Shown piece by piece: positions 851-19,128 of a DNA stretch of 23,575 nt. Position 1 is the stretch's first letter, and every line of letters starts with the position of its first letter. This DNA is from a virus: the IMG/VR virus record IMGVR_UViG_3300036985_007065, positions 1-23,575 of that record, one strand, 5' to 3'. The notes under the pieces are model-generated. The model had not been told where the DNA came from, searched no databases, and was given only the letters and a program-made list of their open reading frames with translations. A program made the position numbers and the translations under genes.

Positions 851-1185
851 GTGGGTCCTCCTTGTTGGTCCCTGTGTTGTGGTCACTCTAACTACGTTGC
901 CGGACAAGAAATCAGTACGCGACCTTGCCGCGGCACTTGCCCTTGGACGCAGCCTTCTTGCGGTCGGTGAACTTCACCGCTCGCTGGTTGACGCGCCACA
1001 TGCGGGGCTCGGCCCGGCCGGTGGTGGGGATGGTTCGCTTGTTCTTCGCCATGACTGGTTCCTCCTTGTCGTGTGCGGGCCGTCAGACCCGCACCTCCTC
1101 GCACACGCCCGTCTCCGGGAGACCGAGCAGACCGCCGAACTCGACGATCGCGAACTCGGGAGCCATGCCGGCTTCGGTGCCGCAC
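490..1185 (-). repeat. Shared 17-base segment encoding CGTEA in two small genes
   Basis: The 17 bases at 490-506 and 1169-1185 are identical on the plus strand. On the minus strand both encode Cys-Gly-Thr-Glu-Ala, inside the zinc-ribbon parts of the proteins at 413-850 and 1083-1268. It could reflect recent recombination between neighbours or shared ancestry. Confidence 0.5.
912..1052 (-). CDS. Small basic protein, 46 aa
   Basis: This gene begins at an ATG preceded on the minus strand by AAGGAGGA at good spacing and ends at the TGA at 912. The 46-residue product starts MAKNKRTIPTTGRAEPRMWR and ends KKAASKGKCRGKVAY. About a third of its residues are Lys or Arg, which suggests nucleic-acid binding, but there is no recognised fold. 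It sits between two other minus-strand genes with their own strong ribosome binding sites. Confidence 0.65.
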   Translation of the reverse strand: MAKNKRTIPTTGRAEPRMWRVNQRAVKFTDRKKAASKGKCRGKVAY

Positions 1186-1318: not shown

Positions 1319-1349
1319 ACCGTAGCACACATCACGACACAAGTGTCAA
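1319..1349 (-). promoter_or_regulatory. Promoter for the minus-strand small-gene operon
   Basis: On the minus strand a TACGGT -10 box (1319-1324) lies about 50 bases before the ATG at 1268. Upstream are TTGACA (1344-1349, spacing 19) and an overlapping TTGTGT (1337-1342, spacing 12). The TTGTGT-N12-TANNNT layout recurs at 9004-9027. Which hexamer is used cannot be decided from sequence. Confidence 0.5.
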
Positions 1350-2455: not shown

Positions 2456-2478
2456 ACCGTAATGTCAGCACCGGACAG
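2456..2478 (-). promoter_or_regulatory. Promoter of the DUF932 gene (CTGTCC-N11-TACGGT)
   Basis: On the minus strand, CTGTCC (2473-2478) is followed after exactly 11 bases by TACGGT (2456-2461), about 41 bases before the ATG. It shares the stretch TGTCCGGTGC with the plus-strand motif at 3629-3651 and belongs to the same recurring family. Confidence 0.5.
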
Positions 2479-2493
2479 AAAACGTGGTCTTAG

Positions 2494-2499
2494 TAGAAT
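2494..2499 (+). promoter_or_regulatory. -10 box of the XRE regulator, probably leaderless
   Basis: TAGAAT lies six bases before the ATG at 2506, so the transcript would begin at or next to the start codon. No ribosome binding site is present. No clear -35 is seen, which is compatible with an activated or autoregulated promoter. It is divergent from the promoter at 2456-2478, with 32 bases between the two -10 boxes. Confidence 0.5.
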
Positions 2500-2505
2500 C
2501 GGGTA

Positions 2506-2796
2506 ATGAACTTGCCGGTGGCGGCTGACGGTCGGGTGACCCGGTTGGCGGTGGCTCGAGCGGCGCGTGCGGTGTCGTGCGCCGAGCTCGGTGACGCGGT
2601 TGGTGTGCCGGGTTCGGTGGTCGCGGCTTGGGAACGTGGTTCGTCCTGTCCGTCGCCGGCTCAGGTGTGTGCGGTGGCGTTGCGTCTTGGTTGGCCGGTC
2701 GAGGACTTGGTGGCGGGTGGGTTGTCGGAAGGGGAGGCTTGGTCGTTGGCGGTGTCGTTGCGGAATCGCATGGTGTTGGGGCTTCGTCCACGCTAA
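2506..2796 (+). CDS. XRE-family HTH transcriptional regulator
   Basis: The 96-residue protein consists mainly of one helix-turn-helix domain, residues about 13-68 (RLAVARAARAVSCAELGDAV, then GSVVAAWERG as the turn and recognition helix, then PSPAQVCAVALRLG). This is the Cro/CI-type XRE arrangement. The short C-terminal tail (EGEAWSLAVSLRNRM) could allow dimerisation. It has no peptidase domain, so it is not a LexA-like repressor. Its position divergent to the DUF932 gene, with facing promoters, suggests it controls this intergenic region and perhaps itself. The role as phage repressor or Cro-like protein is inferred from position. Confidence 0.8.
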   Translation: MNLPVAADGRVTRLAVARAARAVSCAELGDAVGVPGSVVAAWERGSSCPSPAQVCAVALRLGWPVEDLVAGGLSEGEAWSLAVSLRNRMVLGLRPR

Positions 2797-2799
2797 GAG

Positions 2800-2829
2800 T
2801 TGCATCGGTGTGGACGACCATGCTACGGT
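2800..2829 (+). promoter_or_regulatory. Promoter TTGCAT-N18-TACGGT
   Basis: A sigma-70-like TTGCAT (2800-2805) and TACGGT (2824-2829) pair, spaced 18 bases, precedes the gene at 2918. It gives a leader of about 80 bases that includes GTGTCACACCC (2856-2866) and a strong AAGGAGG. Confidence 0.45.
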
Positions 2830-2917
2830 TCTCTTGTGGCCGGGAGAGACAACCCGTGTCACACCCCCCCATAACAATGAGGGGCAACGAAGCAAGGGAC
2901 CACAAGGAGGACCCGAA

Positions 2918-3226
2918 ATGACCAACCTGACCGACAACATCGCAGTCGCACTGCTGGCCGAGCGTGACGGCATCCACCCGGCGCACGCCGCCAACCGGCT
3001 GGCTCTCGCCATCCGTGTCGTGGAGGTCGTGACCGCCATCCATGAGCGGACCCACACCGACATGGCGTGGATCATCGGTCGCATGATCTCGGCGGACGGT
3101 TTCTTCACCGCCCACCGCGACTTCCACTTCGAGGTCAGCCACAACCTGTGGCCCGGCCAGTTCGGTCGTGAGGTGTCCAACGACACCCTTCGGCTGGCGC
3201 TCCAGATCGTGGAGGCGTCCCGATGA
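2918..3226 (+). CDS. Hypothetical helical protein, first of a duplicated pair
   Basis: The 102-residue product starts at an ATG with AAGGAGG eight bases upstream. Its N-terminal 35 residues (IAVALLAERDGIHPAHAANR, then LALAIRVVEVV) match the protein encoded at 6687-6974 (IATALVADNDNIHPAHAENR), so the two are paralogues. The C-terminal halves differ: this copy has a hydrophobic and aromatic segment (MAWIIGRMISADGFFTAH). The stop overlaps the next start (ATGA), linking it to the HTH gene at 3223. No known family is recognised. The leaders of the two paralogues are also alike, which points to duplication of a whole gene unit. Confidence 0.7.
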   Translation: MTNLTDNIAVALLAERDGIHPAHAANRLALAIRVVEVVTAIHERTHTDMAWIIGRMISADGFFTAHRDFHFEVSHNLWPGQFGREVSNDTLRLALQIVEASR

Positions 3227-3573
3227 GCGGCCACGCCACCCTCCCCGTCGAGCCGCTGTACCGGCTGGCCGAGGTTCGTGCCGACATGACCACCGGTTCG
3301 GCCACCGCCGAAGGCACCTTCACACAGGTCGTGTTTGCCGACCTGCTCGGCATGTCGGAACGGTCGGTGGCCCGATGGCTGACGACCGGCCGCATCCCGT
3401 GGGTGTCCGCCGACGAAGCCGCCGTGGCTCTCGGACTGCACCCGTCGCTGGTGTGGGGCGACGCATGGTGGAACGTCAAGGGTGACTTCGACGCCATCGC
3501 CGCCGGCCAGACGAACGACCTCACCGACGAGCTGGTCGGTGCGTTGGCCGACGAAGCGTTGGACGACTTCTAG
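3223..3573 (+). CDS. Small HTH DNA-binding protein
   Basis: The 116-residue protein carries a helix-turn-helix near residues 33-80: FADLLGMSERSVARWLTTGR is a typical second-helix, turn and recognition-helix pattern, followed by VSADEAAVALGLHPSLVWG. The C-terminal tail is acidic (DDLTDEL-type residues). Translation is coupled to the preceding gene by an ATGA overlap. A strong terminator follows directly, so this ends the first plus-strand unit. It could be an excisionase-like or second regulatory protein; the target is unknown. Confidence 0.65.
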   Translation: MSGHATLPVEPLYRLAEVRADMTTGSATAEGTFTQVVFADLLGMSERSVARWLTTGRIPWVSADEAAVALGLHPSLVWGDAWWNVKGDFDAIAAGQTNDLTDELVGALADEALDDF

Positions 3574-3585
3574 TCGGCTCGAGCG

Positions 3586-3630
3586 GCGGCCGGTTCTTTC
3601 TTCGGAAGGGGCCGGCCGCTACGCGTTTTT
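3586..3630 (+). terminator. Rho-independent terminator with UUCG tetraloop
   Basis: A 15-base-pair stem (3586-3600 with 3605-3619, including a few G-U pairs) encloses the loop TTCG closed by C-G. A five-T run ends at 3630. This is the strongest terminator seen in the window and it ends the regulator operon. The T run is also the first half of the TTGTCC element of the next promoter, so terminator and promoter are merged. Confidence 0.85.
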
Positions 3631-3651
3631 GTCCGGTGCCGTCCTTACGAT
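3629..3651 (+). promoter_or_regulatory. Promoter motif TTGTCC-N11-TACGAT
   Basis: TTGTCC (3629-3634) and TACGAT (3646-3651) are separated by exactly 11 bases. They lie about 40 bases before the start at 3692, which has a GGAGG site. This should drive the recombination/SSB unit. Confidence 0.5.
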
Positions 3652-3691
3652 GCGTTCGCTGACGAAGCACTACTAGCCGTGGAGGTACATG

Positions 3692-4369
3692 ATGGGAACG
3701 ATCAGCGAGTCCTACGCTTCGCCGGGTCTACGACTTGGGTTGCTGTTGGAGGATCACCCCGATGCGACGTACACGTTCGACCTTGTGTCGGGTGACGCCA
3801 TCGGTGTTCCGGAGTCGTTCGGAGGTGGCAAGCAGTTCTGTCTTTGCACCATCCGGTTCGGTTCGGGGCGTGCGACGGTGACCGCGTGGAAGGCGGTGCC
3901 CGACCGTGGCAGCCCCGACGAGTGGAACATCCTTTGCACCAAGACGCTCGGTCGGGCGTTGAAGCGTGCGGGGTACCCCGACGACCTTCACGATCTGAAG
4001 GCGTTGGTCCTGTGGCGTCAGCGTGAGGCCGAGATTGCCGCCATCAAGGCGGGCACTCAGACCCTCGCGCTTCCGACGGCGAACGCGATTGCGGCGCTGC
4101 CGTCCGCCGATCCGGTGCAAGCCGCGTTGGACGCCGTCGCCGTGACGGACGCCGAAGCGGTCGGTGCCGACGACTACGACACCGAGGTTGTGGACGCCGA
4201 CCCCGAGGAGGTTGCGATGCTCCGTGACCTGATCGACGGGCTGGACGCCAAGGAGACGAAGGCGTTCGCCGCGTTCCTCAAAACGATCAACGCGCCGTCC
4301 GACCCCGACGCCATGTCGGAGCAGGACCGTTCGGACGTTCTTGCTTGGCTTGATCCGGCGGATGCGTGA
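3692..4369 (+). CDS. Conserved phage protein of unknown function, upstream of HIRAN and SSB genes
   Basis: Two adjacent ATGs exist (3689 and 3692); the second is six bases after GGAGG and is preferred. The product of about 225 residues has an N-terminal globular part (residues 1-110) with a glycine turn (ESFGGGKQFCLCTIRFG) and a basic helix (CTKTLGRALKRAGYP) followed by LKALVLWRQREAEIAAIK. The central part is acidic and Ala-rich (near 135-175). A C-terminal helical acidic segment (ETKAFAAFLKTIN) ends the protein. The basic helix and the neighbourhood of SSB make a DNA-metabolism role plausible, for example recombination mediator or annealing factor, but no catalytic motif supports this. Confidence 0.65.
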   Translation: MGTISESYASPGLRLGLLLEDHPDATYTFDLVSGDAIGVPESFGGGKQFCLCTIRFGSGRATVTAWKAVPDRGSPDEWNILCTKTLGRALKRAGYPDDLHDLKALVLWRQREAEIAAIKAGTQTLALPTANAIAALPSADPVQAALDAVAVTDAEAVGADDYDTEVVDADPEEVAMLRDLIDGLDAKETKAFAAFLKTINAPSDPDAMSEQDRSDVLAWLDPADA

Positions 4370-4770
4370 TGGGCAACAAGACCGTGGAGTTCAAGGTGGT
4401 CGGCATGACGTTCGTGTCTGGCTATCCGTCTAACCTTCATGCGTTGGATGCGTTGTTGGCGGATCGTGAGTCATCGGTCGGTTGGGACGGGCTTGGTTCC
4501 CGTACCGGCCTTCCGGTGGCTCTCATCCGGAACCCCGACAACGAGTACGACTCGAACGCGGTGGAGGTTCATGTCCCCGCTTTGGGCCGTCGTCACGGGA
4601 TGGTCGGCCATGTGCCGGCCGACCTTGCGGCGAAGTTGTCCCCGTCGTTGGACAGGGGCGACGTGTGGGAGGCGTGGTTGGAGCGGGTGCTGGTCAATCC
4701 CGAGCATCCGGATCGGCCGGGAATCCTTGTAGTGATGGAGTGCGTCGCGCGTGTCGCGGTCGCCGTCTGA
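4369..4770 (+). CDS. HIRAN domain protein
   Basis: The start overlaps the previous stop (TGATG). The 133-residue protein fits a stand-alone HIRAN domain: an opening strand (FKVVGMTFVSGYP, near 8-20), the hallmark RNPDNEYDSNAVEVHV (54-69) and GMVGHVPADLAAKL with SPSLDRG (77-97). HIRAN domains in HLTF-type and phage proteins bind DNA ends, notably single-stranded 3' ends at stalled forks. Lying between the unknown protein at 3692 and SSB, it probably acts in phage replication or recombination. The domain call is based on the visible motif; the substrate is inferred. Confidence 0.8.
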   Translation: MGNKTVEFKVVGMTFVSGYPSNLHALDALLADRESSVGWDGLGSRTGLPVALIRNPDNEYDSNAVEVHVPALGRRHGMVGHVPADLAAKLSPSLDRGDVWEAWLERVLVNPEHPDRPGILVVMECVARVAVAV

Positions 4771-4787
4771 GAGAACAGGTAACTGAC

Positions 4788-5279
4788 ATGGCAGCAGGTA
4801 ACGAGCTCACGCTCATCGGTAACGTCACTAGTGACGTGGAGCTGAAGATCACGAAGTCGGGTGACGCCGTGGCGTCGTTCGGTCTGGCGTGGAACAAGCG
4901 GGTCCAGCGTGACGGCGAGTGGGTCGAGGAGGCCCACTTCTTCGACGTGACGGTGTGGAAGGAACAGGCCGAGAACGTCACGGAGTCCGTGAAGAAGGGC
5001 GACCGTGTGATCGTGGTCGGTCGTCTGGACCAGAACCGGTGGGAGGACAAGGCGTCGGGCCAGAACCGGTCGAAGGTTGTGGTGATGGCCGACGAGGTCG
5101 GTGTGTCGCTGCGTTGGGCCGAGGCGAAGCCGGTGAAGAACCAGAAGGGTGACGGGCGTTCCGCCGGCCGTGACTCGGGTCGTGGTGGTCGTGACGACTA
5201 CGGTGATCGTGGCCGCTCGAGCGGTGGCCGTGACTCCGACGCTGGTCGGGGCCGTTACGACGACGAGGTTCCGTTCTGA
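4788..5279 (+). CDS. ssb: Single-stranded DNA-binding protein
   Basis: The 163-residue protein starts MAAGNELTLIGNVTSDVELK, the typical first strands of a bacterial-type SSB OB fold, and continues with VASFGLAWNKRV, FFDVTVWKEQAENV and KKGDRVIVVGRL (up to about residue 110). A flexible tail rich in Gly, Arg and Asp follows, ending in the acidic tip DDEVPF, the conserved SSB peptide that docks replication and repair partners. It coats single-stranded DNA during phage replication. The start codon is only weakly preceded by AGGT. The gene overlaps the lipoprotein gene by one codon position (TGATG). Confidence 0.95.
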   Translation: MAAGNELTLIGNVTSDVELKITKSGDAVASFGLAWNKRVQRDGEWVEEAHFFDVTVWKEQAENVTESVKKGDRVIVVGRLDQNRWEDKASGQNRSKVVVMADEVGVSLRWAEAKPVKNQKGDGRSAGRDSGRGGRDDYGDRGRSSGGRDSDAGRGRYDDEVPF

Positions 5280-5644
5280 TGCGTTCCGTGAAGATGGTGC
5301 TGGTGGTGGGTGCGGCTGCGGTCGCGCTCACCACGGCGGCTTGTGTGCCGTTGGACGAGACGACCGGTTCGACGACCACGGTGAACGAGTTCTTGCCGCC
5401 ACCGACGACGGTGCCGGCGACCACGACCACCCTGTACGTCCCGCCGCCGACCATCAACGATGACGCGATTGCGGCGTTGTCGATGGACATGGCGTGGGAC
5501 GACATGGACTACGAAACCCGCAGTCAGGTGTGTGACGGCGTGGAGCTGTTCGGTCTGTCTACCGCGGCGCAGATGGTGAACAAGGGCGCAGGCTACGAGT
5601 TCGACCAAGATCAGGTTGAGGCGTTCCTACTTCGGAAGTGCTGA
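5279..5644 (+). CDS. Small secreted lipoprotein
   Basis: The 121-residue protein begins with a lysine, a hydrophobic segment (MVLVVGAAAVALTTAAC) and a lipobox-like TAAC with Cys22 as the likely lipidated residue. A Thr/Pro-rich spacer (near 29-60) follows, then a small helical domain (ALSMDMAWDDMDYETRSQVC) ending in FLLRKC. The layout indicates anchoring on the outside of the cytoplasmic membrane. Phage lipoproteins of this size can exclude superinfecting phages, a possible role here. Similar helical tails occur in other small actinophage proteins as I recall. The two Cys residues of the C-terminal domain may form a disulfide. Confidence 0.7.
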   Translation: MRSVKMVLVVGAAAVALTTAACVPLDETTGSTTTVNEFLPPPTTVPATTTTLYVPPPTINDDAIAALSMDMAWDDMDYETRSQVCDGVELFGLSTAAQMVNKGAGYEFDQDQVEAFLLRKC

Positions 5645-5650
5645 GCGTTC

Positions 5651-5673
5651 TTGTCGCACCCCACCGCTAGTTT
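5651..5673 (+). promoter_or_regulatory. Promoter motif TTGTCG-N11-TAGTTT, leaderless start
   Basis: TTGTCG (5651-5656) and TAGTTT (5668-5673) have the standard 11-base spacing. The ATG at 5680 lies six bases after the -10, so the transcript should start at the ATG. The element includes TGTCGCACCC, also found at 6325-6334. Confidence 0.5.
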
Positions 5674-5679
5674 GTGGGT

Positions 5680-5832
5680 ATGGACAACAACGTGAACTTC
5701 AAGAACCCCGAAGCCCGGGACGACGACGAGTGGCTGGACCGGTGCGACCGGCTGGGTGTTGACCCGGCCGTTGCGATGGAGCGGTCGCTCGAGCCGGTCG
5801 GTGGTGACGTGCTGCCGGCTTGGGCCGAGTGA
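5680..5832 (+). CDS. Small acidic hypothetical protein, 50 aa
   Basis: The frame opens at an ATG six bases after a clear -10 box and closes one base before the HNH gene start. The product (MDNNVNFKNPEARDDDEWLD, then RCDRLGVDPAVAMERSLEP) is acidic and mostly helical, with no recognised family. Its leaderless position after a recurring promoter motif and the tight junction with the next gene support it. Confidence 0.55.
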   Translation: MDNNVNFKNPEARDDDEWLDRCDRLGVDPAVAMERSLEPVGGDVLPAWAE

Positions 5833-5833
5833 C

Positions 5834-6280
5834 GTGAAGCGTTCGGGAGGTCCCGAACGGAGAACACCGTTGCGGTCGAACAAGCCGTTGAAGCGGACTC
5901 CGTTGGAGCGTGGTGGTTCGGAGCTGAAGCGTTCACCGTTGCGGCAGCGGTCGGTGAAGCGTGCCGGGTTCATGCGTGAGGTGCGTGCGCCGGCGGTTGC
6001 CGAGCTGGTTGCGGCGGGTGAGCGTTGCCGTATCGGTCCTGTCCTTGCGGATGAGCGGCTTGGCCCTGTGTGCCGGATCGTGGTCGAGGGGCTCCATGAG
6101 CGGCGTAAGCGGTCGGCTGGTGGAAGCCTGACGAATCCGGACAACCTGATTCCGGCGTGTAATGCGTGTAACGGTTGGGTGGAGGACTTTCCGGCGTTGG
6201 CGCGTGAGGTGTTCGGGTCGGTGCTTGTGGTGCGTGAGGGTGATGTGGAGTGGGAGTCGTTGGGTCGTCGGGCTGACTAG
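5834..6280 (+). CDS. HNH-type endonuclease
   Basis: The GTG start one base after the previous stop gives 148 residues; a longer upstream frame would overlap the 50-residue gene. The first 45 residues are very basic (SNKPLKRTPL, LKRSPLRQRSVKR) and probably bind DNA. The nuclease core is GLHERRKRS (His88), NPDNLIP (Asn101 and Asn104) and ACNACNGW (Cys109, Cys112). Cys65 and Cys80 may also hold zinc. The usual last HNH histidine after CxxC is Asn113 or absent, so activity is not certain. Phage HNH proteins act as homing-like nucleases or in packaging; the location far from a terminase does not settle which. Confidence 0.75.
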   Translation: MKRSGGPERRTPLRSNKPLKRTPLERGGSELKRSPLRQRSVKRAGFMREVRAPAVAELVAAGERCRIGPVLADERLGPVCRIVVEGLHERRKRSAGGSLTNPDNLIPACNACNGWVEDFPALAREVFGSVLVVREGDVEWESLGRRAD

Positions 6281-6317
6281 CCCCGTGTGGCGTGTGTCAC
6301 ATCTGACTACAAATACC

Positions 6318-6345
6318 TTGCAAGTGTCGCACCCATGACTACAAT
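6318..6345 (+). promoter_or_regulatory. Promoter TTGCAA-N16-TACAAT with repeated upstream element
   Basis: TTGCAA (6318-6323) and TACAAT (6340-6345) form a near-canonical promoter, seven bases before the ATG at 6353. A similar block, TGTCAC-N7-TACAAA, lies just upstream at 6295-6313, against TGTCGC-N9-TACAAT here. The pair could be an operator or a second start. Confidence 0.55.
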
Positions 6346-6352
6346 GGGGGAC

Positions 6353-6595
6353 ATGACAGAGAGCAACAACAACAACCCCGTGATCGGTGAGCGCATCGTC
6401 ACCATCACCCCCCACGTCCAGACCGTCGAGTGGGACGGCACCGTCTGGCGGTTCGTCTGCGACTGCGGCGAGGTCGTCCACGACGACCAGCCCCGTCGCC
6501 GGGCGATCTTCGCTCAGACCATCGTCCACGTCGGTTGCGAGGACGTTCGTGGGGCGCAGATCCGTTCGACCTGCCGCACCGAGCGCGGCGGCTGA
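6353..6595 (+). CDS. Small Cys-containing hypothetical protein, 80 aa
   Basis: The ATG at 6353 is preferred over an in-frame GTG at 6287, because the TACAAT box sits between them, seven bases before the ATG. The product starts MTESNNNNPVIGERIVTITP and contains VWRFVCDCGEVVH (CxC, near 36-44), VHVGCEDVRG and STC. These cysteines and histidines may bind zinc. The first half is beta-rich. No family is recognised. It is probably translated from a leaderless message. Confidence 0.6.
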   Translation: MTESNNNNPVIGERIVTITPHVQTVEWDGTVWRFVCDCGEVVHDDQPRRRAIFAQTIVHVGCEDVRGAQIRSTCRTERGG

Positions 6596-6608
6596 CCACC
6601 GTTCTGAT

Positions 6609-6637
6609 CCGGCTACCGATTTCTTGTCGGTGGCCGG
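6609..6637 (+). terminator. Hairpin overlapping the next promoter
   Basis: An 11-base-pair stem (6609-6619 with 6627-6637, one G-T pair) encloses a seven-base loop. It follows the stop at 6595 by 13 bases, but no T run follows, so it may be a weak terminator. Its right arm contains the last bases of the TTGTCG element at 6624-6629, so it may instead be an operator-like inverted repeat. Confidence 0.4.
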
Positions 6638-6646
6638 GTGTAGAGT
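6624..6646 (+). promoter_or_regulatory. Promoter motif TTGTCG-N11-TAGAGT
   Basis: TTGTCG (6624-6629) and TAGAGT (6641-6646) are separated by exactly 11 bases. The leader of about 35 bases ends in CCACAAGGAGGAACCCGA before the ATG at 6687, close to the leader of the gene at 2918. Confidence 0.5.
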
Positions 6647-6686
6647 GACCTACAACACCAAGAGGGAACCACAAGGAGGAACCCGA

Positions 6687-6974
6687 ATGAACATCCACGA
6701 CGAGAACACCCACCTTCGACACATCGCCACCGCGCTGGTCGCCGATAACGACAACATCCATCCGGCCCACGCCGAGAACCGGGTCATGGCCGCGATGCGG
6801 CTGGCCGAGGCGTTCGCCCGTAACTCCGGTGTCGCTCCGGTGGCGTGGACGATGGCCGAGATGACCGAGGCCGGTTGGGTCGCCCTGTCCGAGCGTGCCG
6901 GTCTGACCCGCACCGCTTCGTCCGCCACCCGTCGGCTGGCGGCGCTGCTCGTCACCGCCGAGGGTCTGTCGTGA
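6687..6974 (+). CDS. Hypothetical helical protein, second of a duplicated pair
   Basis: The ATG has AAGGAGGA eight bases upstream. The 95-residue product shares its N-terminal third with the protein at 2918-3226 (both with NIHPAH or GIHPAH, then a helix ending AxxRxxEA). The C-terminal part is different (EMTEAGWVALSERAGLTRT, then a helix SSATRRLAALLVTAEG) and looks like a small helical bundle. It begins a run of very small coupled genes (6687-8368). Function unknown. Confidence 0.7.
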   Translation: MNIHDENTHLRHIATALVADNDNIHPAHAENRVMAAMRLAEAFARNSGVAPVAWTMAEMTEAGWVALSERAGLTRTASSATRRLAALLVTAEGLS

Positions 6975-7204
6975 CCCCCGCCGCTCTCGCCGTGGTGGCG
7001 ACCCGTGCCGCGTTGCTCGGTGGCCCCGACGGTTCCATGCGTGCCGGACAGGCGGCGTACACGGCGCTGTACGAAGCAAACCCCGACCTTGCCGAGTCGT
7101 TGGCCGGCGGTCCGAACGACCCGTACCACGACGACACCAACCTTCCGTTGTTTTGGGCGTTCGTCGTCGAAGCGGCGCTCGAGGTTCCGGAGGACGAGCT
7201 GTGA
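6971..7204 (+). CDS. Hypothetical protein, 77 aa
   Basis: The GTG start overlaps the previous stop (GTGA), implying coupling. The product (MTPAALAVVATRAALLGGPD at the start, FWAFVVEAALEVPEDEL at the end) is helical with an acidic C-terminus. Residues near 45-60 (GGPNDPYHDDTNLP) form an Asp/His-rich loop. No family is recognised. Confidence 0.6.
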   Translation: MTPAALAVVATRAALLGGPDGSMRAGQAAYTALYEANPDLAESLAGGPNDPYHDDTNLPLFWAFVVEAALEVPEDEL

Positions 7205-7440
7205 CCGTGAACCCGCACTCCGTCCGGTACGTCAAGATGCCGACCCGTGTTGGTTCCATCTACGCCGTGTACGCGTTCAGCGGTGAAGTCATGGACGACG
7301 TGTGCATCGGTGTCGTGTCGAAGGACCCGCGCGGCTGGGTGTTCCAGATGCCCGATGCCGACAAGTGGTTCGGTATCTATCCGACCCGTGGCGAAGCGGC
7401 AGACTCTCTTGTCTGGCACGCCAACCGGGTGCCGGCGTGA
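7201..7440 (+). CDS. Hypothetical beta-rich protein, 79 aa
   Basis: The GTG start overlaps the previous stop (GTGA). The product alternates short strands (RVGSIYAVYAFSGEV, DVCIGVVSK, GWVFQMP) and ends with a helix (RGEAADSLVWHANRV). This is a small two-layer alpha/beta layout seen in many phage accessory proteins. It resembles the small protein at 7619-7807 in using strand-Trp/Phe-strand-helix, but no clear homology can be claimed. Confidence 0.6.
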   Translation: MTVNPHSVRYVKMPTRVGSIYAVYAFSGEVMDDVCIGVVSKDPRGWVFQMPDADKWFGIYPTRGEAADSLVWHANRVPA

Positions 7441-7622
7441 ACGACGCCGACGTTCTCCGGTGCCGTTTGGCCGACGCCAAAGCGCGTTGGATGGACGCCT
7501 ACCGTGCCGTTGGTGTAGCCGGTTCGCGCGCATCGGTCGCCGCTCGAGCCGCGGAACGCGCCGAGAAGGAACGACTGGCCGAAGTCCGACGGCTTCGCGC
7601 CTTGCTGGCCGAGGTCGAATGA
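7437..7622 (+). CDS. Small coiled-coil protein, 61 aa
   Basis: The GTG start overlaps the previous stop. Almost the whole product is one predicted helix, rich in Ala, Arg and Glu, with heptad-like spacing (LADAKARWMDAYRAVG, then AARAAERAEKERLAEVRRLR). It may oligomerise or bind a partner. No function can be assigned. Confidence 0.55.
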   Translation: MNDADVLRCRLADAKARWMDAYRAVGVAGSRASVAARAAERAEKERLAEVRRLRALLAEVE

Positions 7623-7807
7623 TGGACCCCAACGGGTTCTACTCGGTGACCTACCCAACCGGTCGAGGTTGGGTGTGGAAAGTGTTCTACGGAAACCGTC
7701 CGGTGTGTTCCGGCGTGTCACGGTTCCATGTGGTCGCCAAGTTCGCCGGCCGCTACCGGGCGCAACGGCTGGCTGCCGACGCGTTCCACGCCAGTATCGG
7801 TAGATGA
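7619..7807 (+). CDS. Small hypothetical protein, 62 aa
   Basis: Two tandem ATGs (7619 and 7622) overlap the previous stop; either gives a coupled start. The product begins MMDPNGFYSVTYPTGRGWVW, with strands ending KVFYGNRPV, then a helix near the C-terminus (YRAQRLAADAFHASIGR). Aromatic and basic residues dominate. No family is recognised. Confidence 0.55.
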   Translation: MMDPNGFYSVTYPTGRGWVWKVFYGNRPVCSGVSRFHVVAKFAGRYRAQRLAADAFHASIGR

Positions 7808-8028
7808 TGCCGCTTCGTCAGGCGACGACGTTGGAGAACGAGCTCGCGCTTGCCGCCCGGTTCGGGTACGGCATCCTTCTTGTCCTGCCAGACGTGACGT
7901 ACATCGGGGAAACCGGTGCCGCTGTCGGCCCTGTCGGCAACAACCTGAACGTCTTGTTCTCCTACGAGCAGGCTGGGCGTATGCTCGACCGGCTGAAGGA
8001 GTTCCATGCCGAAGCGGTTGACCGATGA
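7804..8028 (+). CDS. Small hypothetical protein, 74 aa
   Basis: Start and previous stop overlap, with tandem ATGs at 7804 and 7807. A helix (TTLENELALAARFGYG) is followed by hydrophobic strands (ILLVLPDVTYIG, NNLNVLFSY) and a C-terminal helix (EQAGRMLDRLKEFHAEA). The stop lies 23 bases inside the VRR-NUC gene, whose ribosome binding site is within this reading frame. Confidence 0.6.
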   Translation: MMPLRQATTLENELALAARFGYGILLVLPDVTYIGETGAAVGPVGNNLNVLFSYEQAGRMLDRLKEFHAEAVDR

Positions 8029-8368
8029 AGAACGTGCGTGGCGTGCGTTGTCCGAGAAGGACTTCCAGCGGCAGGTGCTGGACTTTGCCCGGTTGTACGG
8101 GTGGCGGGTGGCGCACTTCCACGACAGCCGTAGACAGGTGAAGCCGGGGGTGTTTGTCGGTGACAAGGACGCCGCCGGCTTCCCTGACCTTGTGCTGGTC
8201 CGTCCTCCGGAGCTGGTGGTTCTGGAGCTGAAACGAGAACTAGGTAAGACGACCGTCGAGCAGGACCGGTGGTTGGCGGACCTTGTGGCGTGTGGGGTTG
8301 AGGCGTCGGTGGTTCGTCCTTCGGGTTGGGACGGTTTGAGGCGCAGGTTGTCGGCTGGTCGGCCATAG
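8006..8368 (+). CDS. VRR-NUC domain nuclease
   Basis: The 120-residue protein is a minimal VRR-NUC, PD-(D/E)xK-type nuclease. An entry helix SEKDFQRQVLDFARLYGWRV (Glu17, near residues 16-35) is followed by the metal site GFPDLVLV (Asp61), LELK (Glu74 and Lys76), then Gln86 in VEQDRWL. Families of this kind cut branched or flapped DNA; phage copies act in recombination or repair of replication intermediates. The ATG follows GAAGGAG at a spacing of four. The frame overlaps the preceding gene by 23 bases, a strong sign of coupled translation. Confidence 0.85.
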   Translation: MPKRLTDEERAWRALSEKDFQRQVLDFARLYGWRVAHFHDSRRQVKPGVFVGDKDAAGFPDLVLVRPPELVVLELKRELGKTTVEQDRWLADLVACGVEASVVRPSGWDGLRRRLSAGRP

Positions 8369-8371
8369 TTC

Positions 8372-8394
8372 TTGTCCGTCACCGCCGGTAGTGT
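8372..8394 (+). promoter_or_regulatory. Promoter motif TTGTCC-N11-TAGTGT, leaderless start
   Basis: TTGTCC (8372-8377) and TAGTGT (8389-8394) show the standard 11-base spacing. The ATG at 8401 lies six bases after the -10, with no ribosome binding site, so the message is probably leaderless. Confidence 0.5.
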
Positions 8395-8400
8395 CGTGGC

Positions 8401-8622
8401 ATGGACAACACGACGTACCCCGACGACCTTGCCGCCTTGCGTGACGAGGTTGCCAACCCGCCGCACGACCCGGTCGTTGCCGACCTCGAGGCTCAGGCGA
8501 CCGACGCGTTCCTTGCGACCGTTGCCGCCATCGTGGCCGGCGACCCGTGTGCCGCCGCCCGGCACGCCAACCAGTCTGCGACGCTGCAGGCTGCGGTGAA
8601 CGTGCTGCGGGGTGAGGTCTGA
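8401..8622 (+). CDS. Small helical protein, 73 aa
   Basis: The product starts MDNTTYPDDLAALRDEVANP and continues with two long helices (ATDAFLATVAAIVAGD, AARHANQSATLQAAVNVLRG). A helix-loop-helix bundle is likely. No family is recognised. The stop overlaps the next start (TGATG). Confidence 0.6.
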   Translation: MDNTTYPDDLAALRDEVANPPHDPVVADLEAQATDAFLATVAAIVAGDPCAAARHANQSATLQAAVNVLRGEV

Positions 8623-9003: not shown

Positions 9004-9027
9004 TTGTGTTGCCGCATCGGCTACAAT
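9004..9027 (+). promoter_or_regulatory. Promoter TTGTGT-N12-TACAAT, leaderless start
   Basis: TACAAT (9022-9027) ends seven bases before the ATG at 9035. TTGTGT (9004-9009) lies 12 bases upstream, as in the minus-strand promoter at 1319-1342. CGGCTACA is shared with 1354-1360 and 9251-9257. Confidence 0.45.
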
Positions 9028-9034
9028 CTGACGT

Positions 9035-9223
9035 ATGGAAATCAACGACATCACCGGCCGGACCATCGAGGTCAACGAGCCCAACTTCACCGCCACCGGC
9101 ACCGTCATCGCCACCGAGGTCGTGGACGGCATCACGTTCGTCCTGTGCGACTTCGGTGGCCCGACCATCGGTCGCATCCCGCTGACCGACGGCCAGCTCC
9201 CCCCGACGTTCACCGTCGTCTGA
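9035..9223 (+). CDS. Small beta-rich hypothetical protein, 62 aa
   Basis: This is a monocistronic small gene with its own promoter immediately before the head module. The product alternates strands (ITGRTIEVNEPNFTATGTVI, then TFVLCDFGGPTIGRIPL) and may form a small barrel of the SH3/KOW type. There is no helix-turn-helix or catalytic motif. Placement just before the portal could suit a regulator of the structural operon, but nothing in the sequence shows it. Confidence 0.6.
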   Translation: MEINDITGRTIEVNEPNFTATGTVIATEVVDGITFVLCDFGGPTIGRIPLTDGQLPPTFTVV

Positions 9224-9267: not shown

Positions 9268-11382
9268 ATGCCTCGCGAAGCCGGTTCCCGCATCGACATG
9301 ACCGTCCAAGCATCGTCGTCGTACGCGATGTTGCTGCCACAACGGTATTTGGCGAAGGTGTCGTCGGCGGGTCTGCGGAAGATCGCGGACTTCGACCCGG
9401 CTGGACGTAAGGGCCATGAGTGGCAGCGCGACGCGTTCACCTACAACGAGCTCATCGGTGAGGTCGGCTACCTCCACAATTTGACGGCCAACCTTGTGTC
9501 GTCGTGCGAACTGCGTGTCGTGGAGATTGAAGCGAACCCCGAGGGTGGCGGTACGACGATGTCGGAATCGTCGGACGAACGGGTGTTGCGTGTCATGGAC
9601 GCGTTCGTCGGTCCGCAGGGCGGGCAGAAAGAACTGAAGCGTCGCGCGGCGATGCACTACCAGATCGCCGGCGAGTCGTACTTGCTGGGTACTCCGCTGA
9701 AGGACGACTACGACATAGCACAGGGTGTGTCGTGGGAGTTCTTGTCCACGGAGGAAATCAGGGTCACGAAGGACGGTAAGCGTCAGGTTGTGAAACGAAA
9801 CTCGGCGGGCTTGTCCGATTCCGGCCCGTCGGGTGGCGGCGACGGGTTCGTTGACGTGGATGCGTACATCGCCCGGTTCTGGCGTCCCGATCCCCGTTAC
9901 TCGTTGCGTGCAGATTCCCCTATGAAGCGGGTGCTGCCGATCTGCCGCGAGCTGGTGGTGCTGTCCGAGGTCGTGGATTCGGTGGCGAAGTCACGGCTTT
10001 CGTCCGGCTTGTTGTTCGTACCTGAAGAACTTTCGTTCGGTCCGTTGGACGAGTCGGAAGAAGAAGGCAACGACACCGACGACATTGACCGGTTCATCGA
10101 AGCGTTGATCGACCACATGAGGGCACCGGTCGAGGACCGGACTTCGGCGGCTGGGCTTGTGCCGTTGGTCGTGAAGGGCGCAGCCGAGTTCGGCAGCCAG
10201 ATCAAGCTGATTCCTTTGGCTCAGGATTTGGACGGCACCTACCAGTCGTTGCGTGAGGAGCTGTTGAAGCGGCTGGCTCAGGGTTTGGACGCGCCGCCGG
10301 AAATCATCGGTGGCAAGGGCGGTCTGAACCACTGGACTTCGTACAACGTTGATGCGGACTTCATCAACAAGCACGTCAACCCGGTGGGTGAAGCCATTGC
10401 CGAGTTCGTGACGGTCGCCTATCTGCGTCCGATGCTGCTCGAGTATGAAGGAATCACCGAAACGGACGTTGATCGGTTCCGGCTGGTGTTCGACTCTCGG
10501 GCGATTACGTCCCGGTCGGACGAGGGTCCGGCTGCTGCGGGTGCGTGGGATCGGCTTACCCTGTCGGACCTTGCGTATCTGCGGGCGAACGGTTTCACGG
10601 ACAACGACCAGCCCGACGAGGAAGAACGCGGTCGGCGGCTGGTGGAGAAGTTGATTCTGGCCGATCCGGTGAACCTTGGGCCGATGTTGTTGCCGAAGTT
10701 GTTCCCTGACCTTGCACCGTTCTTTGAGTCGGCTGCTGCGCCGCCGGCCGAGGAAGCACCGGCTCCGGTTGATCCGTTGGACGAAATGTTGGCGGGTATC
10801 CCGGGAGCGGAACGTCGTAGCGTCCAGCCTGAGCCTGCTGGTGGTGTTTCACCGGTCGGGGCACCTGTGGCGCAGCCTGCGGCGCAGCCGACGGGAGAAG
10901 CGCCCGTAGGGGCGTCTATTGACAATCTGTTGGACCGGTTGGCGACCGCTGCCGACGCGGCGTTGGAGCGGGCGTTGGAACGTGCCGGCAACCGGGCAAT
11001 CAGCCGGGCGGCGAAGATGCCGGTGTTGCGTGACCAATTCAAGGCTGCGCCCCGTAACGGTGTGTTGGCCGTGATGAAGGACAACGACTTCACCTCGTTG
11101 GGTATGTCCCGTGAGGAGCTGGTTGTGGATGCGTGGGACAACTTTGTTCTTCGGAGCAAAGCGTGGGTCGCGGACTGGTTGGTCGGTGAGGGCGAGTCGA
11201 CGTTTGTTGCGGACGAGATTGCGACGCTTGCGATGAAGGACGTTGCCCGTCATCTGGACGAGTGGCTGGTGTTGGGTATCGGTAAGGAAATTCCGGTTGG
11301 GAAGAACGGGCTTCGTGTGCCGTACGAGCTGATTTCTGAGCCGTTGGCCGAAGCGATGTTTCGGTACTCAAAGCTGATCTGA
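9268..11382 (+). CDS. Phage portal protein
   Basis: The ATG at 9268 is chosen over a much longer upstream frame because the small gene at 9035 and a -10 box occupy that region. The 704-residue protein has portal hallmarks of actinophage type: DADSPMKR-like RADSPMKRVLPICRELVVLS (near 215-235), SRLSSGLLFVPEEL (near 245-260), and RLAQGLDAPPEIIGGKGG followed by NHWTSYNVDADFINKHVNP (near 335-375), the wing/stem part. After about residue 490 a Pro/Ala-rich linker leads to a helical C-terminal domain (ALERALERAGNRAISRAAK). The portal dodecamer forms the DNA gate at one head vertex. Its stop overlaps the MuF gene start (TGATG). No terminase gene precedes it. Confidence 0.9.
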   Translation: MPREAGSRIDMTVQASSSYAMLLPQRYLAKVSSAGLRKIADFDPAGRKGHEWQRDAFTYNELIGEVGYLHNLTANLVSSCELRVVEIEANPEGGGTTMSESSDERVLRVMDAFVGPQGGQKELKRRAAMHYQIAGESYLLGTPLKDDYDIAQGVSWEFLSTEEIRVTKDGKRQVVKRNSAGLSDSGPSGGGDGFVDVDAYIARFWRPDPRYSLRADSPMKRVLPICRELVVLSEVVDSVAKSRLSSGLLFVPEELSFGPLDESEEEGNDTDDIDRFIEALIDHMRAPVEDRTSAAGLVPLVVKGAAEFGSQIKLIPLAQDLDGTYQSLREELLKRLAQGLDAPPEIIGGKGGLNHWTSYNVDADFINKHVNPVGEAIAEFVTVAYLRPMLLEYEGITETDVDRFRLVFDSRAITSRSDEGPAAAGAWDRLTLSDLAYLRANGFTDNDQPDEEERGRRLVEKLILADPVNLGPMLLPKLFPDLAPFFESAAAPPAEEAPAPVDPLDEMLAGIPGAERRSVQPEPAGGVSPVGAPVAQPAAQPTGEAPVGASIDNLLDRLATAADAALERALERAGNRAISRAAKMPVLRDQFKAAPRNGVLAVMKDNDFTSLGMSREELVVDAWDNFVLRSKAWVADWLVGEGESTFVADEIATLAMKDVARHLDEWLVLGIGKEIPVGKNGLRVPYELISEPLAEAMFRYSKLI

Positions 11383-12995
11383 TGGCTGTGCGGCGTTTCC
11401 GGCCGAGTACGCGGCAGCGTGACTTGAACCGTTACCGGCTGCGGCGTGGAGTGACGGAAGCATTTGCAACGACCCGCAAACAGCTGCGAGCGGCGGTGCA
11501 GATGCAACCTTCCGGGGCTTACGACCCGTTGAGCCTGTGGGACACAGACTGGTGGACCGCCGCGGTGGACCGTCATATCGCTCCGGTGTTGTGGGAAATC
11601 TATTGGGAGTCTGCCGTTGAGGCTGCGTCGGTGGCGCGTCGTGACCCGTTGGCGGCGTATCCGGACATTGAGCGACGCTGGTTGACGCAGGTTCACCGGC
11701 TGTACGGGTTCGGTGACACGGTGGCGCGTCGTGTGGATGTCGTGTCGGACCAAGGAACCGGCGAGTCCAAAGGTTGGATGCTCGACAAGTTGGGGCTTGT
11801 TGCCGCTGCCGGCCCGTTGTCGGACGGTATTGCGGAAGGCATGGTTGCGACCGAGGAGCTGGAAGCGTCGGAGGGTGGTGCTTCGTCGGCGTTGGGTGGT
11901 CAGGGAACTAAGACTTGGGTTGCGTCGGGGCCGAATCCTCGCTTGTCGCACGCCGAGGCTGATGGTCAGACTGTCAGCTTTGACGAGCTGTTTACGGTCG
12001 GAGGGTTTGACTGTCTCTATCCCGGCGACGGTGATCTGCCGCCGGAGGAACGCATCAACTGCTACTGCTCGGTCGAGTATGCGTTTGAGCCGACACCCAA
12101 CCCGCAAGAAGTGGCGGACGACTGGTTGGCGGGTGTTCCGGAGGAACGACTTGCCGAGGTCGGTGAAGCGTTGCCGCAGCCCGAGGAGTGGGTTGCCGCC
12201 GAAGTTGTTGACGCGTCAAGTTCTATTGACACAACGTTGCGGAAACACCCGACCCAGTACCAGCAAGGTGACGAATGGGCCGAAATGGACCCGTTCTCCC
12301 AGCGGGGCAACGTCAAGGTCGTTCAGGCCGGCATCGACGAGGTGACCGCTGCGATTGACTCGGTCCACGGTATGCCCGACGGTTTGCCACCAATTACTTG
12401 GCACCAGCTCCCGAACTCGGTGACGGAGGAAGGCGCGTTCATCCGGACGGTCCGTGAAGGCCCTGACGGTGTCGCCTATCGGCGTTTGGCGGTACGAGGC
12501 AACTCCGAGTTTTTGCATGAAACCATCGCTCACGAATCAGGTCACTACTTTGACTGGGCGGACTTTGACACGCCACCGGGGACGTTCGGGTCTGGTCGTT
12601 CGGTGATGGAAGGCGGGTTTTTTTCCGGCGGGCAGTGGCAGTCGGTGACCGGCTTGTCGTACGAAGGGGTGTCGCCGGCGTTGCGTCCGTTGATGGACAC
12701 GTTCATGGATACTCCCGAGTACCGGTTCTTGTCTCGGACGTTGAGGAACGCCGAACCCGGTGTGAACATGAGCATGAGACAGTTTGAGTACCTGCAATAT
12801 TTGCTGGACCCGAAAGAGGTGTTCGCTCGAGGGTATGCCCAGTTCATTGCGTTGGAGACCGGCAATCCGGCGATGATTTCGCAGCTTGCTCGAGGGTTGG
12901 CGGCTGACTGGCCGTCGCAGTGGACGGGCAACACGTTTGTTCCGGTGCAGCAAGAGTTTCGGAAGTTGTTGGCGAGGACGGGATTGGCGCGATGA
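11382..12995 (+). CDS. MuF-type head protein with C-terminal zinc peptidase domain
   Basis: The N-terminal half (residues about 1-235) is a MuF-like minor head domain: GTKTWVASGPNPRLSHAEAD, a PGDGDLPPEERI loop and INCYC near residue 226, the usual end of the fold. It binds the portal and stays in the head. The C-terminal half (about 290-520) is a zinc peptidase: IAHESGHYFDW with His384, Glu385 and His388 as HExxH, then a probable third ligand Glu479 in DPKEVFARGYAQF, a gluzincin arrangement. MuF proteins with variable effector C-termini are known as phage-encoded polymorphic toxins. The same peptidase is duplicated in the next gene. The substrate is unknown. Confidence 0.8.
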   Translation: MAVRRFRPSTRQRDLNRYRLRRGVTEAFATTRKQLRAAVQMQPSGAYDPLSLWDTDWWTAAVDRHIAPVLWEIYWESAVEAASVARRDPLAAYPDIERRWLTQVHRLYGFGDTVARRVDVVSDQGTGESKGWMLDKLGLVAAAGPLSDGIAEGMVATEELEASEGGASSALGGQGTKTWVASGPNPRLSHAEADGQTVSFDELFTVGGFDCLYPGDGDLPPEERINCYCSVEYAFEPTPNPQEVADDWLAGVPEERLAEVGEALPQPEEWVAAEVVDASSSIDTTLRKHPTQYQQGDEWAEMDPFSQRGNVKVVQAGIDEVTAAIDSVHGMPDGLPPITWHQLPNSVTEEGAFIRTVREGPDGVAYRRLAVRGNSEFLHETIAHESGHYFDWADFDTPPGTFGSGRSVMEGGFFSGGQWQSVTGLSYEGVSPALRPLMDTFMDTPEYRFLSRTLRNAEPGVNMSMRQFEYLQYLLDPKEVFARGYAQFIALETGNPAMISQLARGLAADWPSQWTGNTFVPVQQEFRKLLARTGLAR

Positions 12996-14080
12996 AGTTT
13001 GACTTTCCTCGTATGCCTGATCCTCGACGGGACGAACCGACACCGTTTGAGCGTTTGCCGAAAGCGGTTCAGGACGCGATTGTCACCCAGTGGGCTGGTG
13101 GTGGTGTTTCGGGTTCGGTGGCTCGAGCGTTTTTGCTGAATGGTGAGGGTGCGGACATTGACCCGCCGGACTTGTATGGCGAATCGTTTGCTGGTCGTGG
13201 AACGGTGACGTTTGAGCGGGGCGCTCCTATCCGTGGGGAAGGGGGACGGTTTGGTGGGTCGGAACCCGGAACGGTTGAGGATTCGGGTGGTGGCAACGTT
13301 GCGAAGGTGTCCGACGTTGTGGACTCGGGATTGCGGAAGGGGTTGGGGAAGCAGTCGTTGATGTCAGCTCCCGATCAGCCGACGCTTGGTGCAACTCCTC
13401 GCAACAAGGCGTTGCAAGAAGGCATTGACAACGCGTTGGGTTCGATTGACGCGATTCATGGGATGCCGGCCGAAACGGGAGTCAGTCTCACTTTTCATGC
13501 GTTGTCGGGCAACGCGTCTGCCGAGGGAACGTTCGTGTTTCCTCGGTCGGGTAACCCTGAGGTGCCGACGATGATTACCGTGAAGAACGGTGATTCGTTG
13601 GAAACATCGGTGATGCATGAGGTTGGTCACTATCTGGACTATTCGGACCTTGGTACGGACGAAGGACAGTTTGGTTCGGGTTCGTTGGTGTTTGGTGCGG
13701 ATGGCGCACAAGTCATCGGTGCGTCGGAGTTCATGGCTCCGGTGATGGATTCGGTGCTGGCAAGTCCGGAGGGTCAGATGCTGACGCAAGCGTTGAACGA
13801 TCTTGAACGGACCGGTATGACAACCCTTCCTAACGGAATGACGATTGCCGGTTCTCGGGCTCGTGACGCGTTGAGTTATGTGACCGATCCGAAGGAGCTG
13901 TTCGCTCGAGCGTACGCCCAGTTTGTTGCTACGGAAGCGGGTAGCGATGGGGCGCGTGCCGAACTGGCTCGTAGTTCCGCAGAGGACATCATTCCGTATC
14001 AGTGGGCTCCGGAGAACTTCGGGCCTATTGGTGACGCGATTCGTAGTTCGTTGGATGCGACAGGGTTGCTCAATGGGTGA
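12992..14080 (+). CDS. Second zinc peptidase protein with the cassette linker
   Basis: The ATG overlaps the previous stop (ATGA), giving 362 residues. Residues 1-73 are a short N-terminal region; 74-93 carry the shared linker GAPIRGEGGRFGGSEPG; an acidic/Gly spacer follows. The remainder is a paralogue of the MuF protein's C-terminus: IDAIHGMP near 155, VMHEVGHYLDYSDLG (His209, Glu210, His213) and DPKELFARAYAQF (Glu302). The MuF domain is missing, so this is peptidase plus linker only. It probably travels with the head, either as an internal protein or as an injected enzyme; this is inferred from position and linker. Confidence 0.75.
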   Translation: MKFDFPRMPDPRRDEPTPFERLPKAVQDAIVTQWAGGGVSGSVARAFLLNGEGADIDPPDLYGESFAGRGTVTFERGAPIRGEGGRFGGSEPGTVEDSGGGNVAKVSDVVDSGLRKGLGKQSLMSAPDQPTLGATPRNKALQEGIDNALGSIDAIHGMPAETGVSLTFHALSGNASAEGTFVFPRSGNPEVPTMITVKNGDSLETSVMHEVGHYLDYSDLGTDEGQFGSGSLVFGADGAQVIGASEFMAPVMDSVLASPEGQMLTQALNDLERTGMTTLPNGMTIAGSRARDALSYVTDPKELFARAYAQFVATEAGSDGARAELARSSAEDIIPYQWAPENFGPIGDAIRSSLDATGLLNG

Positions 14081-17994: not shown

Positions 17995-19128
17995 ATGCCT
18001 ACGTCAATTGCACCTCCGGTGTTTGTGCCTAACGAGATTCCGACTGCTGGCGTTGCTCCGGAGCAGGTGCCGGGGTTTGTGTGTCTTGGCAGCATGGTGT
18101 CGTACACCGACATTGACGGTGGTACCGGTCAGGGTGTCGTGCTGAAGATGGTGGCCGACGATCCGACGCGTGAGGGTGGTGTGTCGGGCTGGTTGTTGGA
18201 GGTTCAGCCGGACGGTGGAACCGGCACGGTGATGGTCATGCCGTCGGAAGCGGTGTTGATCGGGGAAGATGTTGCTGTTGTTCCTATGGAGGTTTCGGTG
18301 AAGAAGCGAACGGTTGCTCGAGGTCGAGGTACGGCGACGTTCCCTCGAGGGGCACCTATCCGTGGTGAGGGTGGACGCTTTGGTGGGTCCGAGCCGGGTG
18401 AAGTTTCGGACGACGCCGGCGGTGGAGAGTCCGGCGGCGGCGGTGATTCCGGTGGTGGTGACAACCCGTTTACCGGTGGTGACCGGATGGCCGACGTTCT
18501 TCCGGCTAGTGGTGACCAGTTCGTGGATGAAATTGAAGCCGCTGCGGTAGCGGAAGTCATTGCGGCTGGTGGTGACATCTTCAACGCTGCTGGCGGCGAC
18601 GCCGACATGACTTCCGAAGATCGTGAATCAATCATTCGGACGAACGACGAGGTTGAGGCAGCCATGCAGCCAGCACCGGCTGGTGTTGAGATTTACACAA
18701 CGGCGTTCGTGACGGATAGATACACCCTTGACCCTGAAACCGGTTCAGTAACGCGAGATTCGAGGGGAACTACTGTGGATGCCCTCCAGTCCGCCGGTTC
18801 CAGCGTCGAAGGTGCGCCGCAGTTCACGGTCGGTAGTGGTGACCCTGCTTCGGCCCTAAAGTTTGCTGGCGAAGGAACATACGTCTATGGCCGACCCGAC
18901 GGCAGTCTCGGTCGGATGGAAGGTCAGCGTGTTCCGATCAAGGTGACGGTCCCTGAGGGGCACCCGATGGTCAACGCTGGGCGAGACAACGATGTGAACC
19001 CCGACAGCGACACGAATGTTGTTCTAAGCCGTGATACGTCTCTGACCGTCACCGGCTTTGGTGTGGACGCCGAGACTGGTGCGGCAATGTTTACGGCAGA
19101 AGCCACGTTGAGGCCGAGCAGGGCGTAG
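17995..19128 (+). CDS. Cassette protein with SH3-like domain, linker and C-terminal domain
   Basis: The ATG at 17995 has GGAGGT five bases upstream and is preferred over an in-frame GTG at 17983. In the 377 residues, about 30-90 form the SH3-like domain (CLGSMVSYTDIDGGTGQG, GWLLEVQPDGG). Residues 116-135 carry a perfect linker; a Gly/Ser/Asp-rich spacer follows. The C-terminal part (about 165-377) contains APQFTVGSGDPASALKF, VPIKVTVPEGHPMVNAG and NVVLSRDTSLTVTGFG, aligned in order with the neighbours. DTSLTVTG aligns with the position where ADP-ribosyltransferases carry their catalytic loop strand. The function is unknown. Confidence 0.7.
   Translation: MPTSIAPPVFVPNEIPTAGVAPEQVPGFVCLGSMVSYTDIDGGTGQGVVLKMVADDPTREGGVSGWLLEVQPDGGTGTVMVMPSEAVLIGEDVAVVPMEVSVKKRTVARGRGTATFPRGAPIRGEGGRFGGSEPGEVSDDAGGGESGGGGDSGGGDNPFTGGDRMADVLPASGDQFVDEIEAAAVAEVIAAGGDIFNAAGGDADMTSEDRESIIRTNDEVEAAMQPAPAGVEIYTTAFVTDRYTLDPETGSVTRDSRGTTVDALQSAGSSVEGAPQFTVGSGDPASALKFAGEGTYVYGRPDGSLGRMEGQRVPIKVTVPEGHPMVNAGRDNDVNPDSDTNVVLSRDTSLTVTGFGVDAETGAAMFTAEATLRPSRA

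Follow-up and report, generated by a model that had tools for sequence, protein, structure and literature searches.

Which factor reads the promoter-like motif that recurs ahead of genes in the partial phage genome IMGVR_UViG_3300036985_007065? This entire IMG/VR record, a contig of 23,575 bases, was analyzed and is referred to here as the window. An earlier note had described the motif, YTGTCS-N11-TANNNT, at five gene starts and had suggested that the phage uses its own activator or sigma-appropriation factor. Our analysis points to the host instead. The motif probably represents the -26 element and the -10 box of the actinobacterial RecA-NDp/PafBC promoter, and early and DNA-metabolism genes of the phage are probably driven by host PafBC. 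This interpretation is based on the exact geometry of the sites, their host-like sequence, and the presence of the element before host recA, together with the spacing kept in related phages and a spacing peak in viral contigs.

Scanning the window for YTGTCS-N11-TANNNT returned six matches, compared to a mean of 0.21 and a maximum of 2 in 100 shuffled sequences, and the reversed pattern gave no match. All five sites reported previously were recovered at their coordinates, together with a sixth that had been overlooked, 907-885 on the minus strand (TTGTCCGGCAACGTAGTTAGAGT). The fixed spacing was likewise confirmed: TTGTC occurs 86 times in the window; five of these copies lie exactly 12 bases before TANNNT, and no other spacing between 5 and 25 is seen more than once. 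When all 5-mers were scored at all distances upstream of TANNNT, with no motif preset, TTGTC at distance 12 topped the enrichment (5 observed, 0.11 expected). As for the claimed placement before genes, all six sites are intergenic, in a window with only 1,214 intergenic bases out of 23,575 (5%). Chance recurrence in GC-rich intergenic DNA, to which the small number of short sites might lend itself, is hardly credible given the 0.21 expected matches, the empty reversed control, the intergenic location, and the conservation of the spacing in relatives and over IMG/VR.

The window sites look like promoters with an activator element just upstream of the -10 box. In agreement with the earlier note, the spacing is too short for a -35/-10 pair, and TTGAC is not found 16 to 19 bases upstream of TANNNT anywhere in the window. 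The -10 box ends 6 bases before the start codon at 5651 and 8372, so the genes behind these sites are presumably leaderless; at the other four sites, the distance is 34 to 41 bases. Seven plus-strand genes in the left arm (2918, 3689, 5680, 6353, 6687, 8401, and 9035) follow a gap in which TGTC or TGTG is located near the motif distance from a -10-like box. Such a box, but no motif, is found ahead of the repressor gene at 2506 and of the portal gene at 9268. A TTGTGT-N12-TANNNT variant had also been reported at two positions; both copies exist, but the one at 1319-1340 reads better as GTGTC-N11-TACGGT. A different view of the TGTC element is that of an operator, at which a repressor such as the 2506 protein covers ordinary sigma-A promoters. 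The repressor gene adjoins the divergent site at 2478, and some class B sites of relatives are part of inverted repeats, an example being GGGTGGGAC/GTCCCACCC in G007. Nevertheless, the strict distance to the -10 box suits an activator, TTGAC is absent at -35 spacing in the window, and the identical element is found at host recA, which makes an operator very unlikely.

The motif resembles the recA promoter that mycobacteria use independently of LexA. The published RecA-NDp/PafBC consensus agrees with this, reading tTGTCRgtg, 8 nucleotides (nt), and TannnT, that is, TTGTCR, 11 bases, and TANNNT (PMC5656591). Working forms in Mycobacterium tuberculosis are TGTCGG, TGTCAG, and TGTCAC followed by N10-TANNNT (PMC8151990). 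PafB contacts the -26 element, while PafC contacts domain (region) 4 of sigma-A and replaces the -35 contact, a mechanism termed sigma adaptation; PafBC is turned on by single-stranded DNA (ssDNA) bound at its WYL domains (PMC11804915). All six window sites have TGTC exactly 12 bases before TANNNT, and no canonical -35 hexamer is present. The site at 6624-6646 (TTGTCGGTG-GCCGGGTG-TAGAGT) matches the published consensus throughout. Position 6 is A or G only in this site and at 5651, and the subsequent GTG is found only at 6624. Another host activator could act at the same site: ClgR was reported to recognize the recA P1 motif (PMC5656591), and some genomes contain more than two WYL genes, allowing for another WYL regulator. 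This is improbable, since in vivo binding, the loss of P1 induction in the mutant, and structural data led later studies to attribute the motif to PafBC.

To compare the sites with host promoters, up to 700 bases upstream of recA were scanned. NTGTC-N12-TANNNT was found at 45 of 51 loci, nearly all from Actinobacteria, ranging from Mycobacterium and Streptomyces through Acidimicrobiia. Among the Acidimicrobiia, the element is present at 23 of 29 usable recA loci (30 taken; consensus NTGTCACACCCC), and 58 of 60 genomes contain WYL domains, often in two copies approximately 1 kb apart. Such tandem pairs fit the expectation for pafB and pafC. The TGTG variant also occurs in two Acidimicrobiia recA promoters, with N12 counted from TGTG. 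In addition, a weight matrix was trained on bacterial recA promoters alone. Since it contains no phage sequence, its ranking of the window is an independent test: the sites at 5651, 6624, and 8372 take the first three places (Table 1), and the next best position scores 9.8. Of the looser members of the class, the one at 2856-2878 (GTGTCACACCCCCCCATAACAAT) reproduces the -26 element of Acidimicrobiia recA exactly, although its -10 box is poor. Genome-wide counts of TTGTC-N12-TANNNT in 24 bacterial genomes mostly did not exceed the reversed control and are therefore uninformative, the pattern being too loose. A portal-based prophage search of bacterial genomes found none, so the phage was not assigned to a host; this host would be an actinobacterium, perhaps among the Acidimicrobiia.

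These results bear directly on the suggestion of a phage-encoded factor. In that case, a MotA-like protein or sigma-appropriation factor, for example one of the helix-turn-helix (HTH) proteins 2506 and 3223 or a product encoded outside the fragment, would recognize YTGTCS. The geometry is identical to that of T4 middle promoters, HTH genes exist in the window, the contig is incomplete, and four sites depart from most host sites in having C at position 6. However, the same element precedes host recA with the published PafBC geometry, the recA-only matrix recovers three sites, and a search of 16 phage records from relatives or from carriers of such sites, including the 105-kb contig G098, yielded no WYL (PafBC-type) protein. 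The 2506 product is a CI/Cro-like repressor by profile, both HTH proteins are dispensable for explaining the motif, and Pfam scans of 20 window proteins from this partial contig revealed no MotA-type activator. An activator of the phage's own is thus unlikely, and the earlier suggestion is probably wrong.

Further candidates were rejected. A phage-encoded WYL activator was rejected, none being found in the 16 phage records. For LexA control, the LexA box GAACNNNNGTTC showed no enrichment in the window (11 versus 14.5 expected). WhiA, with the site GACAC/GTGTC, was set aside because the window sites are mostly TTGTC.

Twelve relatives of the window phage were collected via the portal protein. 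TGTC at the same distance is enriched in most of the larger ones, in the form STGTC[A/C]CACCC-N-TANNNT, which is also the form at Acidimicrobiia recA. For example, relative G003 carries CTGTCACACCCCACCGATATAAT and GTGTCACACCCCTCCGATACAAT, and the sequence upstream of Aquihabitans recA is CTGTCACACCCCCTCCGTATGGT. Promoters of the 3689 orthologues keep the 12-base distance in the window, G003, G001, and G008, while the element itself varies (TTGTC, GCGTC, GCGTC, and TTGTG). Separately, G003 to G007 (e.g., loci L019 and L024) show a second, leaderless class of putative promoters with a long conserved stretch, approximately TTGACTTGATNCTGTAGTNNNNNGTGCTAYAGTAARTACATG, several times per genome.

The spacing also stands out across viral contigs. 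IMG/VR was searched for TGTCACACCCC-N{1,11}-TANNNT, with N5 as the predicted spacing. Among the matches listed, at least 55 have N5, compared to a mean of 8.9 (3 to 13) at other spacings, and a scrambled TGTCACACCCC control is flat over the spacings, with 5 at N5. Among the matches listed for TTGTCAGTGG-N-TAGNNT, at least 23 have the predicted N7, compared to a mean of 10.0 elsewhere; a second peak of 18 is seen at N2. Some phages carry 10 to 16 such putative promoters. Arrays of sites were found in some AT-rich phage contigs, with 16 forward sites versus 1 in the reversed control in the 13.5-kb contig G096, and 19 and 14 sites overall in G098 and G099, with 9 and 5 in the reversed controls. 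Nearly all near-consensus array sites are located 25 to 55 nt before an ATG with a ribosome-binding site. In G096 (locus L390, 4301-13449), approximately 15 small early genes are arranged in tandem, most with their own near-consensus putative PafBC-type promoter. DUF932 genes of two unrelated phage groups (L390, 10491-11501; window, 1428-2414) both lie behind candidate PafBC-type promoters; a DUF932-based IMG/VR search found nothing.

In 16 cultured actinophages, a strict pattern gave 10 matches versus 0 for the reversed control. Microbacterium phage Metamorphoo has sites ahead of its RecE exonuclease and Erf annealing-protein genes, and Mycobacterium phage Estes has one at 48953-48974, ahead of a Holliday junction resolvase gene. 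Not all matches are promoters, since at least the one at 74195 in Forza lies within an opposite-strand gene. The feature is not universal either, as the GC-rich phages Giles, phiC31, R4, and Dewdrop carry only 0 to 1 loose sites each. Among cultured phages of Mycobacterium smegmatis, Estes and Patience have candidate sites, those of Patience being at 42516 and 55263; a pafBC deletion strain of this host has been published (PMC5656591).

Several observations weigh against PafBC control. The window is only a 23.6-kb fragment of the phage genome, and three of the six sites (907, 2478, and 3629) are not prominent under the recA matrix. Four of the six have C at position 6, where recA sites of hosts nearly always have A or G. 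Among the matches listed in IMG/VR, the window's own TTCTTGTCCG form is no more frequent at the predicted spacing (8 versus 11.5), and TTCTTGTCCG-N10-TAGNNT shows no spacing peak. The C at position 6 does not appear fatal, because one Acidimicrobiia genome (G060) uses C, and position 6 alternates between A and C in orthologous phage promoters (15440 in G003 and 9243 in G007). In G060, the recA site is TTGTCCGAGG, the TTGTCCGAG form occurs at recA and at other sites, and eight of nine TGTCCGA-N9-TANNNT sites read TGTCCGAG.

Judged by their sequence, putative promoters of the host -26/-10 type precede early and DNA-metabolism genes of the window phage. Under PafBC control, ssDNA arising from infection, replication, or damage would activate host PafBC, which would steer the sigma-A RNA polymerase of the host onto the phage promoters. 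The SSB/HIRAN/annealing operon would be one output, and products such as the single-stranded DNA-binding protein (SSB) may in turn act on ssDNA. More tentatively, several unrelated actinophage groups might place most of their early genes (up to approximately 15 promoters per region) under host PafBC, with ssDNA starting or amplifying early and recombination expression. It is equally tentative to describe this program as T4 middle-like and controlled by a host DNA damage sensor. PafBC promoters have so far been known as a host repair regulon. No paper linking them to phage promoters was found in the open-access literature searched, so that, as far as searched, the promoter class is known and its use by phages apparently undescribed. 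If present in many phages, such promoters would explain the timing of early transcription in phages with no obvious activator of their own. They would also make ssDNA a signal for the expression of phage genes and provide a second route from damage to phage besides LexA.

Table 1. Candidate promoters in the window and associated genes.
Feature	Position	Strand	Remarks
PafBC-type promoter TTGTCC-N11-TAGAGT (candidate)	885..907	minus	Intergenic, 34 nt to ATG; before gene 413-850 (DUF4241-like)
Variant promoter GTGTC-N11-TACGGT (putative)	1319..1340	minus	Spacing one base short; before gene 1083-1268
DUF932 gene	1428-2414	minus	DUF932 E 2.8e-31
PafBC-type promoter CTGTCC-N11-TACGGT (candidate)	2456..2478	minus	41 nt to ATG; before DUF932 gene 1428-2414
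Candidate, -26 element GTGTCACACCCC, weak -10	2856..2878	plus	Rank 3, Acidimicrobiia matrix; before gene 2918-3226
PafBC-type promoter TTGTCC-N11-TACGAT (candidate)	3629..3651	plus	Before operon 3689-5279 (annealing-protein-like, HIRAN, SSB)
Possible single-strand annealing protein, first gene behind 3629	3689..4369	plus	Weak fold match
HIRAN-domain protein	4369..4770	plus	Pfam PF08797 E 2.6e-11
Single-stranded DNA-binding protein (SSB)	4788..5279	plus	PHROG 44 E 4.2e-35
Most host-like site TTGTCGCACCCCACCGCTAGTTT	5651..5673	plus	Rank 1, recA-trained matrix, 20.1 bits; leaderless gene 5680-5832
Variant GTGTCGCACCC, GTGTC-N11-TACAAT, looser class member	6324..6345	plus	Leaderless gene 6353-6595
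TTGTCGGTG-N8-TAGAGT	6624..6646	plus	Rank 2, 18.9 bits; before gene 6687-6974
PafBC-type promoter TTGTCCGTC-N8-TAGTGT (candidate)	8372..8394	plus	Rank 3, 14.9 bits; leaderless gene 8401-8622
Variant TTGTGT-N12-TACAAT	9004..9027	plus	Leaderless gene 9035-9223

Among the genes behind these sites, 2918-3226 is a paralogue of 6687-6974. The 3689 product shows weak fold matches to the single-strand annealing proteins SAK3 and Erf, the best viral match being SAK3 (E 5e-3, TM 0.26; model pLDDT 66), and its assignment as an annealing protein is tentative. In the virion region, a near-identical peptide, GAPIRGEGGRFGGSEPG, and variants of it occur in five proteins (at about 13218-13275, 15115-15170, 16195-16245, 18348-18400, and 19555-19610), apparently as a linker joining different domains. 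The products of 11382-12995 and 12992-14080 contain an HExGH-type motif (HESGHYFDW and HEVGHYLDY), which suggests metalloprotease domains; in the former, this part is fused to a head-morphogenesis protein. The large virion-region protein encoded at 14373-16817 contains an internal pentapeptide-repeat domain (PF00805).

The window sites can be compared with three known systems. Middle promoters of phage T4, activated by MotA/AsiA, have an activator element at approximately -30 to -26, a short fixed distance to the sigma -10 box, and no -35 element. The window sites share this arrangement, and the likeness to T4 drawn in the earlier note stands as far as an activator next to the -10 is concerned. 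In contrast, the element is YTGTCS rather than a MotA box, and the factor is most likely of host rather than phage origin; mechanically, sigma adaptation by PafBC appears close to T4 middle activation. LexA/SOS-controlled phage promoters couple expression to the host DNA damage response, as the proposed system would, but through release of a repressor instead of an ssDNA-sensing activator. The closest counterparts are the RecA-NDp/PafBC promoters, such as recA P1, with which the window sites share the TGTC core, N12 to TANNNT, the lack of a -35 element, and the location before DNA-metabolism genes. They differ in lying in a phage and in the C at position 6 of four of the six.

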